This document shows positions 31,997 to 49,672 of a stretch of 64,000 nt of DNA, in pieces. Made by a program: the position numbers and the translations under genes. The DNA comes from Acinetobacter pittii (GTDB lineage: Bacteria > Pseudomonadota > Gammaproteobacteria > Pseudomonadales > Moraxellaceae), in assembly GCF_034067285.1 (NCBI RefSeq), contig NZ_CP139286.1, positions 2,294,001 through 2,358,000 on the forward strand. Direction: 5' to 3'. The notes below the pieces were generated by a model. That model was not told the origin of the DNA and did no database searches. It saw only the letters and a list, made by a program, of their open reading frames with translations. Every line of letters starts with the position of its first letter. The stretch's first letter is position 1.

Positions 31997-32563
31997 TTAA
32001 GTTGAATGCTCAGATAGCATAAATAAAAAGTAATCTAGTAATTTATCCCGTTCATCTACGCTATTGGCACTTAATAACTGAACCATTGCTCCATCAATTG
32101 CAAATAGAAACATGTGTGCGTCTTTTATTGAGGCGGTAGTTTTGACAGTAAGAAGTAGCTTATAAATCTCATTGATAAACCAGTTTCTATAATCAACAAC
32201 CACCCGGTACGCCATTGCATAGCACTTTTCAATTTCAAAAATTGCTTTAAATGGCAAACGGTAAAACCCTTCTAAATTGGCATGTAAAAAGTAAATTTGC
32301 TTGAGTTTATCGAACACCATAAGTTCGCTGTATGAATTGATAATTGAAAGGACTTTTACTTTGAGCGCATCCGTTTGAAAGGTTAAACACATCTCGATGA
32401 GTCGTGCTTTTGAATGAAAGATGTTATAGAAAGTCGCTTTGGGAATTTTGGCCTCAGCAATAATTCGGTCAACCCCCACCGTGTTAAACCCATCTTGAGT
32501 AAATAAATCTTTTGCCGTGTGCAGCACTCGTAGTGCTCTAAATGAAGATTCCAAATTGTTCAT
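31997..32563 (-). CDS. TetR-family regulator of TetR/C4-like RNA module 1
   Basis: A 188-aa TetR protein. The HTH region is VLHTAKDLFTQDGFNTVGVD through KATFYNIFHSKARLIE (residues 13-53). It is a clear paralogue of the TetR at 47552: SFRAL, KATFYN, FHSK, RLIEM, IYFLHA, LPFKAIFEI, VVDYRNWFINEIY, DAHMFLF and IDGAMVQLL are all shared in register. It is transcribed away from a structured C4-like RNA about 300 bp to the right, as is its paralogue. It probably regulates that divergent region, but no target is shown. Confidence 0.85.
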   Translation of the reverse strand: MNNLESSFRALRVLHTAKDLFTQDGFNTVGVDRIIAEAKIPKATFYNIFHSKARLIEMCLTFQTDALKVKVLSIINSYSELMVFDKLKQIYFLHANLEGFYRLPFKAIFEIEKCYAMAYRVVVDYRNWFINEIYKLLLTVKTTASIKDAHMFLFAIDGAMVQLLSANSVDERDKLLDYFLFMLSEHST

Positions 32564-32856
32564 ATATACCGCTTAAAATAATTTTTTGTTGTATGTAAAA
32601 AGAGATAGAAATGCCGTCACTCTTAAAATGAGTGCTAAAAACAGGCATGCAAAAACGACACAATAAAGTTGTGCTCGCCTATCTCGGGTTTATTGTTGCT
32701 ATGATTTTTGAGTCGTAATGATCTAAGGTTGTAGAAAACTTAGAGTCGATTAAACCAATTTATAGACTGTTTAAACGGTATAAATAGAGAGATTTTGGCA
32801 TAGGCCAATAAATGAGAAGAATTAGTACGCATAGCGGACTCCTAGATGAAATAGAA

Positions 32857-33083
32857 GTTCTACCTAATCACTGTCAAATGATTATGGTGGCAGAACGAAG
32901 GCGGGTTGACAGACCAGTCATCTAGGAACTGGCACGCACAAGGCGTCCCTCCTCCGTCCTACCGCTACGAAGGGGGACGAACGAGTTCAACACCAAAAAA
33001 TTACTTTTTTGATGTTCTAGATGATAGCGGCCTGTCAAAGCCGACTGGCGATGTAGGCCAGCATGCAAAGGATAGTATTCACT
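32857..33083 (+). ncRNA. C4-antisense-like structured RNA, copy 1
   Basis: Non-coding by codon pattern but conserved with 48366-48579. It opens with TGGCAGAACGAA, the start seen in the Acinetobacter family related to phage P1/P7 C4 RNA. Stems: long-range TTGACAG (32906-32912) with CTGTCAA (33032-33038); hairpin CCAGT/ACTGG (32914-32932); ACGC/GCGT with its loop over 32934-32945; CAAAAAA/TTTTTTG (32994-33011); and CTGGC/GCCAG just after 33040. Several stems differ in sequence from copy 2 but keep pairing. A small open frame over it is not believable. The strand is inferred; stems fit either. The role may be antisense control of a phage-type or host mRNA. Confidence 0.65.
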
Positions 33084-33245
33084 ATTGTTGGCGTCAAGCG
33101 TGGGAAATGACAATCGTATTAAAGTAGAGCGGTTGGGGAAATAAAAAATAGGTAAGTCAATCATCACTAAAATTTAACTTACCCTAATCTTACTAATTTT
33201 AGAAAAATATTTTATAAGGCTTTTGAATATATAAAATTAAATTTT

Positions 33246-35928: not shown

Positions 35929-37650
35929 TTAATTAATACTCGCAATCACGGTTTCCGCATGACAGGTCGCGCCTTTCTCCGTACTAAGCTGAATAACACC
36001 ACTGCGATGCGCCAGTACCTGCACTTCCATTTTCATAGCTTCCATAATGGCAACCACTTGCCCTTCTGTCACTTGTTCACCATTTTCGACTTTCCAAGTG
36101 CTAATCACACCATTAATTGGAGCAAGTAAATGTTCGGCACGTACTTCTGGCTCGGCAGTCTGCGCTTGAACTGCGGTTGCTGGGCCTTGTGCAAACATGC
36201 CCGCAGGTAAACCTAAACGGTGTAACTTGCCATCAATTTCAATATAGCTCAGCAACATCGGTTGTTGATGGTTTGGAATGCCTCGTTTAGTTGGCTTTAA
36301 CTCTTGTTTAAAGTCGTTTTCGATCCAGCGTGTATGGACATTAAATTCATCGGTAAAGTCAGGTTCATTAAGTACTGCACGGTGGAAATCTAAAACAGAA
36401 GCTACGCCTTCAATTTTAAATTGCTTTAATGCACGTTTGGCGCGAGCAATTGCAACTTCGCGGGTTGGACCAGTCACAATCAGTTTTGCCATGAGTGAGT
36501 CAAAGTGGCTAGACACTAAAGAGCCAGTCCGAACACCTGTATCAACCCGTACACCATGACCAAACGGCGCTTCAAATAAACTCAACACACCAAAGGCCGG
36601 AATAAAACCACGTGCTGGGTCTTCGGCATTAATACGAAACTCGATGGCATGACCTTGTGCTTTTGGGGTTTCTTTAATAGAAAGCTCACGGCCCTGTGCT
36701 ACGCGAATTTGCTCAACCACCAAATCGACTTTTGAGGTTTCTTCGGTCACTGGGTGCTCGACTTGCAAACGGGTATTTACTTCTAAAAATGAAAGCTTGC
36801 CATCACGACTCAGTAAGTATTCAACTGTACCCGCTCCCACATAGTTTGCGGCCTGACAAATGTTTTTTGCCGAGGTTAAAATTTGCTGATAAATCTCATC
36901 GCTAATAAATGGCGCTGGTGCTTCTTCGACTAACTTTTGGTTACGGCGTTGCAATGAGCAATCACGTGTGCCAAGCACCACAATATTGCCGTGCTGGTCA
37001 GCAATGACTTGCGCTTCTACATGGCGCGGTTTATCAAGATATTGCTCGACAAAACATTCACCACGGCCAAAAGCAGCTTTTGCCTCTCGTACTGCCGACT
37101 CATAAAGCTCTTTGACTTCTTCGAGTTTCCACGCGACTTTTAAGCCGCGGCCACCACCACCAAATGCGGCTTTAATGGCAATCGGTAAACCAAACTGTTT
37201 AGCAAACGCTAAAGCTTCATCTGCATTGTTGAGTGGATCTTGCGTACCCTGAACCAACGGTGCACCAACCGAAGCTGCAATTTTACGTGCTTCGATTTTA
37301 TCACCTAGTTTTTCAATGGCACTTGGTGATGGCCCGACCCATTTTAAGCCTGCATCAATCACAGCTTGGGCAAACTCAGCCCGTTCAGATAAAAAACCAT
37401 AACCCGGATGAACCATGGTCGCTTTCGATTTTTTTGCAACTTCGATAATGGCTGGAATATTTAAATAGGTTTCACTGGCAGTCGCACCAGCCAAGCCCCA
37501 TGCTTCATCTGCAAGTTCGACATGCATGCTGCCGATGTCATCATCTGCATATAACGCGACCGATAAAATGCCCATGTCACGGCAAGCATGAATAATACGA
37601 ACGGCAATTTCACCACGGTTAGCAATCAATAATTTTTCTGTATTCATCAT
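35929..37650 (-). CDS. Biotin carboxylase fused to biotin carrier domain (5-oxoproline cluster)
   Basis: A 573-aa protein: biotin carboxylase (1 to about 450; KLLIANRGEIAVRII, GGGGRGLKV, RDCSLQRRNQKLVE) and a C-terminal carrier with AMKM, biotinyl-Lys540. It lacks its own carboxyltransferase. The ATG overlaps the stop of the upstream fused PxpB-PxpC gene by four bases. PxpB/PxpC (KipI/KipA) are homologous to the carboxyltransferase part of urea carboxylase, so the two proteins together could form a full biotin enzyme. The acceptor is unknown. Databases often call this family an acetyl-CoA carboxylase subunit, which the context does not support. Confidence 0.88.
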   Translation of the reverse strand: MMNTEKLLIANRGEIAVRIIHACRDMGILSVALYADDDIGSMHVELADEAWGLAGATASETYLNIPAIIEVAKKSKATMVHPGYGFLSERAEFAQAVIDAGLKWVGPSPSAIEKLGDKIEARKIAASVGAPLVQGTQDPLNNADEALAFAKQFGLPIAIKAAFGGGGRGLKVAWKLEEVKELYESAVREAKAAFGRGECFVEQYLDKPRHVEAQVIADQHGNIVVLGTRDCSLQRRNQKLVEEAPAPFISDEIYQQILTSAKNICQAANYVGAGTVEYLLSRDGKLSFLEVNTRLQVEHPVTEETSKVDLVVEQIRVAQGRELSIKETPKAQGHAIEFRINAEDPARGFIPAFGVLSLFEAPFGHGVRVDTGVRTGSLVSSHFDSLMAKLIVTGPTREVAIARAKRALKQFKIEGVASVLDFHRAVLNEPDFTDEFNVHTRWIENDFKQELKPTKRGIPNHQQPMLLSYIEIDGKLHRLGLPAGMFAQGPATAVQAQTAEPEVRAEHLLAPINGVISTWKVENGEQVTEGQVVAIMEAMKMEVQVLAHRSGVIQLSTEKGATCHAETVIASIN

Positions 37651-39230
37651 TCATTCTCAAAATCTGTAAATTCGGCAATTTTTTTAAATTTGATGCGGCA
37701 ACCCGCCGGAATCTGTGCCACCAAGTCCCAATGGTGTTTAGCAACTGAGGCAATGACTGGATATCCGCCCGTTAAAGGGTGATCATTCATAAATAAAACG
37801 GGCTGGCCACTCGGTGGAATCTGCAAAGCACCAATGCATGTGCCTTCACTTTCTAGTTCATGGGTTATTTTGCGAGTCAAAGGCTGTGCACCTGAAAGTC
37901 TTAGCCCGACGCGGTTGCTTTCATTGGTCACGAGCCACTCTTGCTGACACAGTAGTTCAATACTGTCTTGTTCAAACCAGTCTGTGCGCGGCCCCATCAC
38001 AATATCTAGCTCAACGACTTCGCCAGCTTTTGGCAAGTCGCTTTTGCCCACTTCATTTACGCTAATGTTGGCTGCTTTGACCTGCCCTTGATAAATAGTA
38101 TCTCCAAGCTTTAAAGGCTCTGGGCCTAGCACTGCCAAGCTGTCAAACGAAGCACTATTGAGTACAGGTTCAACGTCTATACCACCACGAACTGCCAAAT
38201 AGTTTCTTAAACCTGCGGTTGGTGGTTGAATTTGAAATTCATCGCCTACATCCAAATCAATCGGTTGATAGCTTGCAAAGTCTGCGGTTTGCCCGTCGGC
38301 AAATTTCACACGAATGTTTGAGATGGCCCCAGTCACCGCAATAACACCTGCATGCTGCATTTTGGCTTTTAAGCCACCATTTAAAACTTCAATGACGGGT
38401 GTATCGGTTAGATTACCCACAATACGGTTAGCACTATGCATGGCAGATAAATCCGTTGCACCAGCCACTCCAACCCCAATATTGGTCTGGTTTAAGCGCC
38501 CTTCATCTTGAATAAGCATTTGTAAACTTGGTGCAGTGATCGTAAATAACGGCACAGATTGTTTCGGCTCAACTGTACGCGTGATTTGCTGTGGTACATT
38601 TACAGTTGTTGGACGATGTGTGACATCTTCAAAATGTACGGTCATGCCCGGTAACAGCAATGCTGGATTTTTCCGCTCTAAATCCCACATTTTCTCTGTT
38701 GTTGTACCAATTAGCTGCCAGCCACCCGGACTGTCTTTTGGATAAATACCAGAGTATTTTCCAGCCAAGCCCAAAGAGCCTGACGGTATTTTTTTACGTG
38801 GAACCGTTAAGCGTGGAATATCGGTAAAAGGCTTATCGGGACTGCTCATATAAGCAAAGCCCGGCGCAAAACCAATAAAAGCCACATTCCACACGCTTTG
38901 GTGATGTTTTCTAATCACATCGGCAACAGACAACCCTTGTAACTCGGCAACCTGAGCAAGGTCTTCGCCATCGTAACGAATCGGCACAATCACTTCTTGG
39001 CTGCTACGCTCAAATCCAGAATCAATTTTGAGGCTTTGAATTGAAGCAACCAGCGTTTTAAAGTTGGTTTCAATCTCGTTAAAAAAAACCAAAATTGTTT
39101 TTGCAGCGGGGACTAAGTCTTTAATTCCATTCAATTGCGTATTTTGCAATTTATTGTACAACGCCAAAGTTTCCTCTAAGCTCGCAAGCTCAATTAGAAA
39201 ACAATCGGCGTTTACCGATAAAAAACGCAT
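37647..39230 (-). CDS. Fused PxpB-PxpC (KipI-KipA) 5-oxoprolinase/carboxyltransferase subunit
   Basis: 527 aa. Residues 1 to about 225 are PxpB/KipI (FIGFAPGFAYMSSPDKPF, PRLTVPRKKIPSGSLGLAG and YPKDSPGGWQLIG, all conserved). The rest is PxpC/KipA (MLIQDEGRLNQTNIGVGVAGATDLSA and TGGYPVIASVAKHHWDLVAQI). In E. coli these are separate PxpB and PxpC proteins that hydrolyse 5-oxoproline to glutamate with ATP, together with PxpA. Here they are fused and overlap the biotin carboxylase gene by four bases. The domain order matches the carboxyltransferase half of urea carboxylase. The family call is firm; hydrolase versus carboxylase chemistry is open. Confidence 0.88.
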   Translation of the reverse strand: MRFLSVNADCFLIELASLEETLALYNKLQNTQLNGIKDLVPAAKTILVFFNEIETNFKTLVASIQSLKIDSGFERSSQEVIVPIRYDGEDLAQVAELQGLSVADVIRKHHQSVWNVAFIGFAPGFAYMSSPDKPFTDIPRLTVPRKKIPSGSLGLAGKYSGIYPKDSPGGWQLIGTTTEKMWDLERKNPALLLPGMTVHFEDVTHRPTTVNVPQQITRTVEPKQSVPLFTITAPSLQMLIQDEGRLNQTNIGVGVAGATDLSAMHSANRIVGNLTDTPVIEVLNGGLKAKMQHAGVIAVTGAISNIRVKFADGQTADFASYQPIDLDVGDEFQIQPPTAGLRNYLAVRGGIDVEPVLNSASFDSLAVLGPEPLKLGDTIYQGQVKAANISVNEVGKSDLPKAGEVVELDIVMGPRTDWFEQDSIELLCQQEWLVTNESNRVGLRLSGAQPLTRKITHELESEGTCIGALQIPPSGQPVLFMNDHPLTGGYPVIASVAKHHWDLVAQIPAGCRIKFKKIAEFTDFENE

Positions 39231-47551: not shown

Positions 47552-48106
47552 CTACCCAAACCCCATCAAGAAATACTCAAGTAACCGCTCTCTTTCATCT
47601 GGTTTGTTTGGGTCTAAAAGTTGAACCATCGCCCCGTCAATCACAAACAAGAACATGTGGGCATCTTGCTTTGTGGCAGTACTTTTTACTGTTAGAAGCA
47701 AGTTGTAGATTTCATTGATAAACCAGTTTCTATAATCAACTACAAGCTGATATGCCTTTGGATGTGATTTTGCAATTTCAAAAATGGCTTTAAACGGCAA
47801 ATGATAAAGCCCATCTAAATCGGCATGTAAAAAGTAAATTTTGCGAAGTTTTTCAACCAGTGTTAAATCTTTATGCGCGTAAATAATCGAAATGACCTCA
47901 TGTTTAAGCCCTTCCTTTTGAAAACTTAGGCTCATTTCAATAAGGCGCTCTTTTGAGTGAAAATAATTATAAAAAGTCGCTTTGGGTGTTTTTGATGACT
48001 CGATAATTCGGTCTATTCCGACATTGTGAAAACCATATTTATTAAAAAGAAATCTTGAGGTGTGAAGCACGCTTAAAGCACGGAATGAAAGATCTGAATG
48101 TGGCAT
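47552..48106 (-). CDS. TetR-family regulator of TetR/C4-like RNA module 2
   Basis: A 184-aa paralogue of the TetR at 31997, with the same HTH layout (VLHTSRFLFNKYGFHNVGID to KATFYNYFHSKERLIE) and nearly the same effector-domain core (VVDYRNWFINEIYNLLLTVK and IDGAMVQLL). It is transcribed away from the second C4-like RNA about 280 bp to the right, like its paralogue. Parts of the intervening DNA also match between the two modules, for instance around ATCTC..GTTTATTGTT. The whole TetR-RNA unit therefore seems duplicated. Confidence 0.85.
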   Translation of the reverse strand: MPHSDLSFRALSVLHTSRFLFNKYGFHNVGIDRIIESSKTPKATFYNYFHSKERLIEMSLSFQKEGLKHEVISIIYAHKDLTLVEKLRKIYFLHADLDGLYHLPFKAIFEIAKSHPKAYQLVVDYRNWFINEIYNLLLTVKSTATKQDAHMFLFVIDGAMVQLLDPNKPDERERLLEYFLMGFG

Positions 48107-48360
48107 AGTTTTTACCGTTATAAATTCTTGTTGTTTCTAAATGAGATACTTTTTGGGGAGAAAAAAGGCATAGCAAAGCCCGTAAAGACTGTGCGTGGCA
48201 CATCTCAAGTTTTATTGTTAGTTAAGTTTTTAGACGAAATGATTTAAAGCCTGAAAACCTTACGGCGATCAAACTGCTTTAAAAGTTTAAGTTGTGTCGT
48301 TATAGCTTTTAGCAAAGGCTGCCAAGAAATAATGGATGTGCAAAGCCAACTCCTTTTTAA

Positions 48361-48374: not shown

Positions 48375-48579
48375 GACATTAAAATTATGGTGGCAGAACG
48401 AAAGGGGGTTAGCAGACTGGTCAAACGTGGCCAGCACACCCGAAGGTGTCCCCCTCCCGTTCCGCCGCAGAGGGGGCACGAGGGCTCAACACTAAAAGTA
48501 TGAAACTTTTAATGCACGTTTGATGCGGTCTGCTAAAACCGACTGGCAATGTGGCCAGCAGGCGAAGAATAATATTCAC
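48366..48579 (+). ncRNA. C4-antisense-like structured RNA, copy 2
   Basis: Leading inverted repeat GTTCTGCCA (48366-48374) with TGGCAGAAC (48391-48399). Then long-range stem TTAGCAGAC (48409-48417) with GTCTGCTAA (48528-48536); CTGG/CCAG (48417-48434); ACACC-CGAA-GGTGT; GTGTCCCCCTC with GAGGGGGCAC; TAAAAGT/ACTTTTA (48493-48511); and CTGGC/GCCAG near 48543-48558. Conserved ends TGGCAGAACGAA and ATTCAC match copy 1. The family resembles C4 antisense RNA of phages P1/P7, which blocks antirepressor translation; many Acinetobacter genomes carry such sRNAs. No ant-like target is seen next to it. Confidence 0.7.
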
Positions 48580-48784
48580 ATGTCTTTCAGTCAAGTATGC
48601 AAAATGACATTTGTTTTAAAATAGATCATTAAAAAGTAAGGATAAATAATTAAAATTTATTGTTAAATTGGGATTTATAAAATGCCTATCAATCAAAGCT
48701 CTATCGATGTCTTAAAAGAGAAAACTTGCAAAAAATCATCTATGGCAATATTTTAGAGTAATTACTCTAAAATGAGATCTAATA

Positions 48785-49542
48785 ATGAAAACTAAAAGAA
48801 TTGGTTCGTATCACTGGATGCAAGCTACCAATGGTCAGCTCAGCTTCAAAGACAAAATTAAGTTAATTCAAAAAATTATGCTGCCCAGTGTTATGGCCTC
48901 TATAAAAATAAATTACTTTCGGTTCAAAACTTCCGATGATTTTGATATCGATCAGATCGTAATACCTGATACTCAAATGGTTAAAGTCGCGCTTGATGAA
49001 CTAGAGGCTAAAGCAAATATATCTATCTACAATCATTCATGGCGCACTTATTTCTGGGGGGCTGCTTTAGGCAATATACAAAGACGGCAATTTGATGATG
49101 AGTCACTTTTAATAGCCTCACTTTTTCATGATATTGGCTTAACTGAGCAACATACTCATAGTAAAGGTTGTAACTGTTTTACCTATGAGAGTGCTAAACA
49201 ATTTGAGCAAAAGGCTAAAGAACATAGCTTCGATGAGAAAAAAGTGAAGTTATTAAAGATGCTATCTGCTTACATATGAATGGCTATATAGATCATTCTG
49301 ACCCAGCAGAAATTACTCTTTTACAGCAAGGTGCATCCTGTGATGTGATTAGTGACGGTCTATATAAACTCCCCCTATCTTTTCGAAAGGAAATTTTAGA
49401 AAAATATCCTAGAAAACAATTTAATAAAGAATTTATCGAGCTTATTAATTTAGAAACTAAGAATGTATCAAATTCTCGAACGAGTTTATTAAGTAGTCTT
49501 GGTTTACCCCTTATGATTAATTCAAACTTATTTAAAGAGTAG
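48785..49542 (+). pseudogene. HD-domain (cyanamide hydratase-like) protein, frameshifted
   Basis: The first frame gives 164 aa with NHSWRTYFWG and SLFHDIGLTEQH, the first His and the HD pair of HD-domain hydrolases of the cyanamide hydratase type, then stops at 49279. A second frame from about 49256 carries on the same protein: reading AICLHMNGYIDHSDPAEI and onward for about 90 residues. A one-base loss near 49250 (a TTAATTAAA-like run now reads TTATTAAA) would explain both. The last metal-ligand Asp likely lies past the shift, so the product should be inactive. A sequencing error is possible. Intact homologues would be about 250 aa. Confidence 0.78.
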
Positions 49543-49627: not shown

Positions 49628-49641
49628 TTGGAGTTCTGCCA
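49628..49641. repeat. 14-bp direct repeat, right copy
   Basis: Identical to 48361-48374. Here the sequence after it (TAATATTAGGGTTGCCGAA) no longer completes the hairpin, so this looks like a partial copy of the C4-like leader. It lies in the 130-bp gap between the HD pseudogene and the EAL gene. Confidence 0.55.
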
Positions 49642-49672
49642 TAATATTAGGGTTGCCGAATTACCCTTTTAT

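Follow-up and report, generated by a model that had tools for sequence, protein, structure and literature searches.

C4-like antisense RNA in the 5' leaders of a TetR clade of Acinetobacter: layout, cis covariation and a candidate attenuator

In the window, the whole stretch of 64,000 nucleotides of Acinetobacter pittii DNA that was analysed, a TetR-family gene is found twice beside a region rich in paired segments. The question raised by this locus is what the paired region encodes and how it is related to the regulator gene next to it. An earlier note had described the two places as a two-copy module, in which a C4-like structured RNA under structural selection and a TetR gene facing away from it form one regulatory unit.

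The C4 leaders of the window and the spread of the RNA family

Both copies were matched by the Rfam C4 model RF01695, a covariance model that scores sequence and fold jointly, above its cut-off of 45 bits (53.6 and 65.1 bits for copies 1 and 2), which bears out the proposed membership of the C4 family. The paired substitutions and A-rich hairpins described between the copies are also present: copy 1 has CTGTCAA (33032-33038) and TTGACAG (32906-32912), with a third element CTGTCAA at 32871-32877, and copy 2 has the CTGCTAA/TTAGCAG stem and the TAAAAGT/ACTTTTA hairpin. The sequences of the supposed long-range stem are therefore real, but its identity is that of an a1/b1 element of the phage P1 type, predicted to compete with the C4 fold. 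The following features were assigned to copy 1.

33069..33097, minus strand: sigma-70-like promoter TTGACG-17-TATCCT of the leader; weak alone, a similar pattern recurring genome-wide
33017..33038, minus strand: a1/b1 element (b1 TTGACAG, 33032-33038; a1 TCATCTAG, 33017-33024), complementary to C4 loop and linker; in the MFE fold
32991..33014, minus strand: A/T-rich hairpin separating a1 from C4, included in the MFE fold
32883..32969, minus strand: C4 antisense RNA core (RF01695, 53.6 bits)
32918..32928, minus strand: variable antisense loop a of C4, TTCCTAGATGA, read as anti-Shine-Dalgarno plus gene-specific address
32839..32877, minus strand: b2 (32871-32877), complement of the C4 3' arm (GGTAGAAC, 32857-32864) and a2 (TCATCTAGGAG, 32839-32849)
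32740..32832, minus strand: short leader ORF of 30 codons, icd-like by position; ORF call without a chance control
31997..32563, minus strand: TetR-family regulator of 188 aa, starting 320 nt past the C4 end

The RNA from 33085 to 32860 (minus strand) was predicted to fold at -85.3 kcal/mol (z = -5.76; none of 200 shuffles was as good), and in its MFE fold the long stem is formed by the upstream element with the C4 loop and linker. The a2 segment TCATCTAGGAG, complementary to the C4 loop over 11 bp, covers the leader-ORF ribosome site. Between the leader ORF and TetR no marked structure (z = -1.30) and no terminator-like site on the minus strand were found; one such site lies past TetR, at 31989-31966. 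Promoter-like sites numbered 6 in the 1.5 kb scanned against 4.8 expected, a count not above shuffles, and a TTGAC-16/18-TA pattern was observed 121-140 nt 5' of C4 in all 16 C4 copies of the genome by a loose regular expression applied without a chance control. Among the records compared, from which the window's own record was possibly excluded, the copy 1 TetR is nearest to proteins of A. lactucae (98%) and A. pittii (97%); just distant TetRs were matched among solved structures, and no NCBIfam model came near its cut-off.

The features assigned to copy 2 are as follows.

48566..48594, minus strand: promoter-like site TTGACT-17-TATTCT of the leader
48386..48472, minus strand: C4 antisense RNA core (RF01695, 65.1 bits)
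48287..48343, minus strand: short leader ORF of 18 codons with TTG start, its ribosome site inside an AACTCC/GGAGTT hairpin; class II (see below)
47552..48106, minus strand: TetR-family regulator of 184 aa, 64% identical to that of copy 1

Upstream a1/b1 elements complementary to C4 are present in both copies. No a2 was found at the ribosome site of copy 2, where the best downstream match to the loop is 5 bp and lies off that site. Both copies are C4 leaders, and they differ at the decisive point: a site matching the C4 loop covers the leader ribosome site in copy 1 and is missing from copy 2. By reading, the C4 core of copy 1 starts with GGT, in the same place as the GGT of P1, and that of copy 2 with GGC followed by GGA, as candidate RNase P sites of the GGW type; two published C4-like members use GGC at the cleavage site, according to the part of PMC5320573 used here. 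Adjoining copy 2, an HD-domain ORF was observed on the plus strand (48785-49279), which may be shortened, since coding-like sequence continues beyond its stop by eye. By eye, GTTCTGCCATAAT at 49629-49670 is similar to the 3' end of C4, with a terminator-like hairpin after it; this could be a C4 relic or a chance resemblance.

The two copies are not a two-copy module: they are 2 of 16 C4s in the genome, and the family is common in the genus, being found in at least 101 of 119 sampled Acinetobacter genomes with a strict filter that loses weak matches, and in none of 14 control genomes. The pairing is kept across other Acinetobacter copies, which together with the fold score of copy 1 agrees with the structural selection proposed before. 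In genome G083, three C4 units of about 85 nt each stand head to tail behind one promoter-like site, with three different loops; neither a1/b1 nor a leader ORF is seen there by eye (L083, G083:C1:255601-255856). A similar row, ABUWs067-069, is found in the published AB5075 table, as far as that table was seen. Tandem arrays of this type are possibly trans-acting.

Association of C4 with a clade of TetR genes

C4 and TetR are both on the minus strand and co-directional. TetR does read away from the element, as had been stated; C4, however, is encoded on that same strand and is read in the direction of TetR. Since TetR is downstream on the same strand and a promoter-like site is just upstream, C4 would most simply be the 5' leader of tetR.

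In this genome, a TetR of the same clade lies 3' of C4 within 1100 nt in 13 of 16 cases, the other 12 TetRs being 49-79% identical to that of copy 1. The same was observed for 15 of 20 C4s in another genome of the species (G007, within 1100 nt downstream), for 23 of 26 in G083, where tandem C4s share a TetR and one match is below the cut-off, and for 14 of 19 on the A. baumannii X4-300 chromosome, searched with a strict filter that loses weak matches. The distance from C4 to the TetR start was about 270-321 nt in most cases. Conversely, among the 15 TetR homologues of the own genome (E <= 1e-15), all 13 with at least 49% identity are closely preceded by a C4, which is missing at the two with 29-30%. 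In G083, 17 of 19 homologues have an upstream C4, including all 17 with at least 47% identity, and in X4-300 this holds for 14 of 15 with at least 45% identity (the exception is 623300-623848) and for none of three at 30-34%. The view of TetR and RNA as one regulatory unit is upheld by this association.

C4 has no general tie to TetR, because no clade TetR was found at 40 C4 regions from other genomes, picked by hand and not at random among the matches listed; at the best C4 matches of the genus survey it was present in 9 of 29. In other genomes C4 often lies 5' of lipoprotein-like or phage-like genes. Small lipoprotein-like genes of 85-100 aa, alike by eye, follow C4 leaders at L004, L011 and L012 of the own genome and at L095 and L124; Pfam gave no match for those of L004, L011 and L124. 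In two further scanned regions of other Acinetobacter genomes, C4 lies 5' of a Rha-type regulator (L116) and of a primase-type zinc-finger gene (L122), and the setting downstream of C4 in L117, L121 and L123 is phage-like and resembles these two by eye.

Two A. baumannii plasmid records, pAC29b (L151) and pRAB94-3 (L152), carry a clade TetR with leader-like DNA 5' of it and identical neighbours on both. The records NZ_CP064203.1, NZ_CP077849.1 and NZ_CP104448.1, filed as plasmids, are chromosome-sized A. baumannii sequences. A phage-borne TetR, for which phrog_21633 was considered, is not claimed: the records matched, named 'Acinetobacter phage MD-2021a', have the look of bacterial contigs; those of CAKLQF02/CAKLQH02 reach 378 kb and carry ordinary host gene names.

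Cis covariation of the C4 loop with its target sites

Loop pairing was scored as ungapped helices between each C4 loop and its own (cis) or other (trans) leaders, with permutation tests; a first cis/trans matrix, in which duplexes could contain gaps and loops were poorly delimited, gave noisy results (p 0.001 downstream, 0.00017 upstream) and was replaced. Among 17 leaders (the 16 of the genome and that of P1), the loop pairs with its own upstream a1 site over 6-10 bp, and cis is best or tied best in 15, at the 1e-5 permutation floor; the exceptions L004 and L014 rank 5th and 4th in cis. Downstream, the loop pairs with a2 over the short-ORF ribosome site with 9-11 bp in the class I leaders and P1, also at the 1e-5 floor.

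A larger set comprised 120 leaders: 128 of 130 were usable (L090 and L112 having no loop anchor), 8 duplicates were taken out, and L094 repeats the match of L037. Upstream, the cis mean was 18.96 against 12.19 in trans, the best of 20,000 permutations being 13.32, and downstream it was 17.85 against 12.69, with a best permutation of 13.59. Cis ranked first in just 47 leaders upstream and 42 downstream, and 94 and 70 leaders, respectively, reached the top 5%; loops are shared by many leaders. For the 75 leaders with distinct loops, the cis means were 18.73 upstream and 17.06 downstream, where permutations reached at most 13.28 and 13.53, with cis first in 38 and 28; the permutations ignore relatedness, which this one-per-loop run lessens and does not remove. 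X4-300 alone gave 18.79 upstream (maximum 14.97) and 14.79 downstream (maximum 14.47), with cis best upstream in 16 of 19.

The C4 7-mer beside the loop has 12 variants, two of which cover 87 of the 120 leaders. Of the 120 leaders, 102 have its exact complement in cis on the upstream side and 75 have it in the 25 nt downstream, against at most 44 and 35 in 2000 permutations; the corresponding counts for the 16 leaders of the genome are 13 and 6, and L002, L003 and L014 have no exact b1 match. Downstream, a further complement in cis was observed for the C4 3' arm (p 0.00015 for the 16 own leaders, p 5e-5 for the 120).

Leaders with loop pairing at the ribosome site (a2) were defined as class I, which comprises 6 of the 13 TetR leaders of the genome (L001, L005, L007, L009, L015, which is copy 1, and L016). 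The other 7 (L002, L003, L006, L008, which is copy 2, L010, L013 and L014) form class II, in which no long loop target is found at the ribosome site and an AACTCC/GGAGTT hairpin lies over that site in 7 of 7. In L003, 7 bp including a G-U pair can form at this site, a match that is not specific to this leader. All seven class II leaders retain C4 and a1, and in 6 of them the cis match of a1 to the loop is the best (it ranks 4th in L014). L004, L011 and L012 also have no a2. The leader ORFs of the TetR copies have 18-35 codons and stop well 5' of tetR; a TTG start is needed by 6 of 16 leader ORFs, and the motif (F/Y/I/N)AK, found by eye, occurs in the leader ORF of all 13 TetR leaders.

A candidate attenuator, other readings and phase switching

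The immI region of phage P1 (c4-icd-ant) resembles copy 1 in having, in the same order, promoter, a1/b1, C4, a TTGACAG b2 and a2 over an ORF ribosome site. The gene controlled in P1 is the antirepressor ant, whereas a chromosomal TetR gene stands here, hence the leaders were not filed as an immI operon; they also differ from P1 in that one genome carries many paralogues whose loops differ, and in that class II has no a2. The parts of the P1 literature used here describe c4 RNA as a repressor of Ant synthesis (PMC8546580), icd as apparently required for ant expression (PMC8201110) and P1 C4 as cut by RNase P (as told in PMC5320573). Weinberg 2010 (PMC2864571) lists c4 and c4-a1b1 motifs; the latter, whose table line gives gamma-Proteobacteria and phages, is by its name the a1/b1 element that accompanies C4, as in the window leaders.

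By analogy, we consider it fairly probable that a P1-like antisense attenuator in the 5' leader holds tetR off, and this is our best explanation. A single promoter would give a transcript with a1/b1, C4, b2/a2, the short leader ORF and tetR, from which RNase P would excise C4 as in P1. The freed C4 loop would pair with a2 and cover the leader-ORF ribosome site, the leader RNA left untranslated would be terminated early, and C4 would accumulate with tetR off. Because neither a terminator-like site nor marked structure lies 5' of tetR, this termination would have to be of the Rho type. In phage P1, termination is Rho-dependent. In the uncut transcript, a1/b1 would pair with the same C4 segments and impose a competing fold, giving two exclusive leader states; since the a1/b1 fold and the C4 fold exclude each other, switching could be stochastic. 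Class II must use a variant, because a2 is missing, perhaps through the Shine-Dalgarno hairpin and the C4 3'-arm complement. The layout and the cis covariation are strong evidence, from which we infer repression, termination and two-state switching; the cis attenuator is the best explanation for class I and, likely in altered form, for class II.

Other readings account for part of these data. C4 could be a free trans-acting sRNA against other mRNAs, of the host or of incoming phage, lying beside TetR through joint duplication. The Group 1 sRNAs have been interpreted in this way in print (PMC5320573, as far as seen), the three tandem C4s of G083 have no a1/b1 or leader by eye, and some loops pair with other leaders (for example L011 with L009, L005 with L015). 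Hitchhiking, however, leaves the covariation of the loop with its own a1 and ribosome site unexplained, and we regard this reading as unlikely. Attenuation by ribosomes on the short ORF alone, with C4 as a relic, would fit the (F/Y/I/N)AK motif seen by eye in all 13 TetR leaders and the loss of a2 in class II, but class II keeps C4 and an a1 whose match to the loop is best in cis in all but L014, which makes a relic very unlikely. The dyads might instead be DNA operators, at which TetR would repress its own gene by binding the leader, with RNA pairing in a secondary role; inverted repeats adjoin the TetR gene here, as they do in many TetR systems. We hold this to be highly improbable, as the covarying parts are the C4 loop and a site overlapping the Shine-Dalgarno sequence, which fits RNA pairing, and as a model of sequence plus fold was matched. 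In addition, the part of PMC9802203 used here reports no autoregulation by qRT-PCR for three A. baumannii TTTRs.

The cis attenuator can be set beside two published findings in A. baumannii AB5075, each taken from parts of its source. Weiss 2016 (PMC5320573) described 21 Group 1 C4-like sRNAs, of the same RNA family and genus as the window C4s. These sRNAs are expressed, with higher read numbers over C4 than 5' of it, and are apparently processed at GGW. Possible trans targets were proposed; TetR is not named in the main text, where the sole 'tetr' match is part of 'tetraloop'. Perez-Varela 2022 (PMC9802203) described 11 TTTRs whose expression drives the opaque-to-translucent switch and whose activation is stochastic, OFF or ON at the mRNA level, and left open how they are kept off and turned on; in the parts of this paper covered no TTTR leader RNA is described, and 'antisense' is absent from the main text. 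Like the window TetRs, the TTTRs are a large set of related TetRs, and the window TetRs have the TetR_N domain and belong to a large paralogous clade. The switch events were still called 'uncharacterized' in a 2024 paper (PMC10845969), and PMC11472050, PMC12802169 and PMC9810633 also bear on the topic, all four taken in part.

On a rough linear map (assumed 3.97 Mb, 19 of 21 sRNA positions), the 12 TTTR gene numbers (11 and one pseudogene) lie at a mean of 24 kb from a Group 1 sRNA against 114 kb at random (p 4e-5), two gene pairs sharing their nearest sRNA. The TetR family with C4 leaders probably includes the phase-switching TTTRs, and family and map position suggest a link to opacity switching. 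C4-like sRNAs and TTTRs have each been published already; among the papers listed, from mostly open literature, none ties the two together by title or start of abstract, which is not proof of absence. SrvS was rejected as a direct partner: with p1AB5075 minus strand 37506-37900, taken as approximate ends of SrvS, just one of the 16 leaders (L008) formed a helix that exceeded the best of 15 simple shuffles (25.5 against 25.0), which was taken as noise and is a weak negative.

A further-reaching account is a serious possibility that we advance tentatively. A phage immunity module would have been domesticated and multiplied into 13-17 self-addressed antisense attenuators, at least one before nearly every member of the TetR clade; competition of a1/b1 with C4 would make a separate bistable switch for each gene, tandem C4-only arrays would silence others in trans, and this would be the missing mechanism of the stochastic activation of phase-variation TetRs.

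The match of the loop to the leader of its own gene suggests how those TetR genes may stay off, and the cis rule, in which the loop combines an anti-Shine-Dalgarno sequence with a gene-specific address, leads to exact and cheap tests. If true, the C4-like sRNAs without named targets, as far as their source was seen, and the TTTRs without a known off-switch would be two halves of one transcript, and a phage antisense switch would have been reused and multiplied to control regulators of the host.
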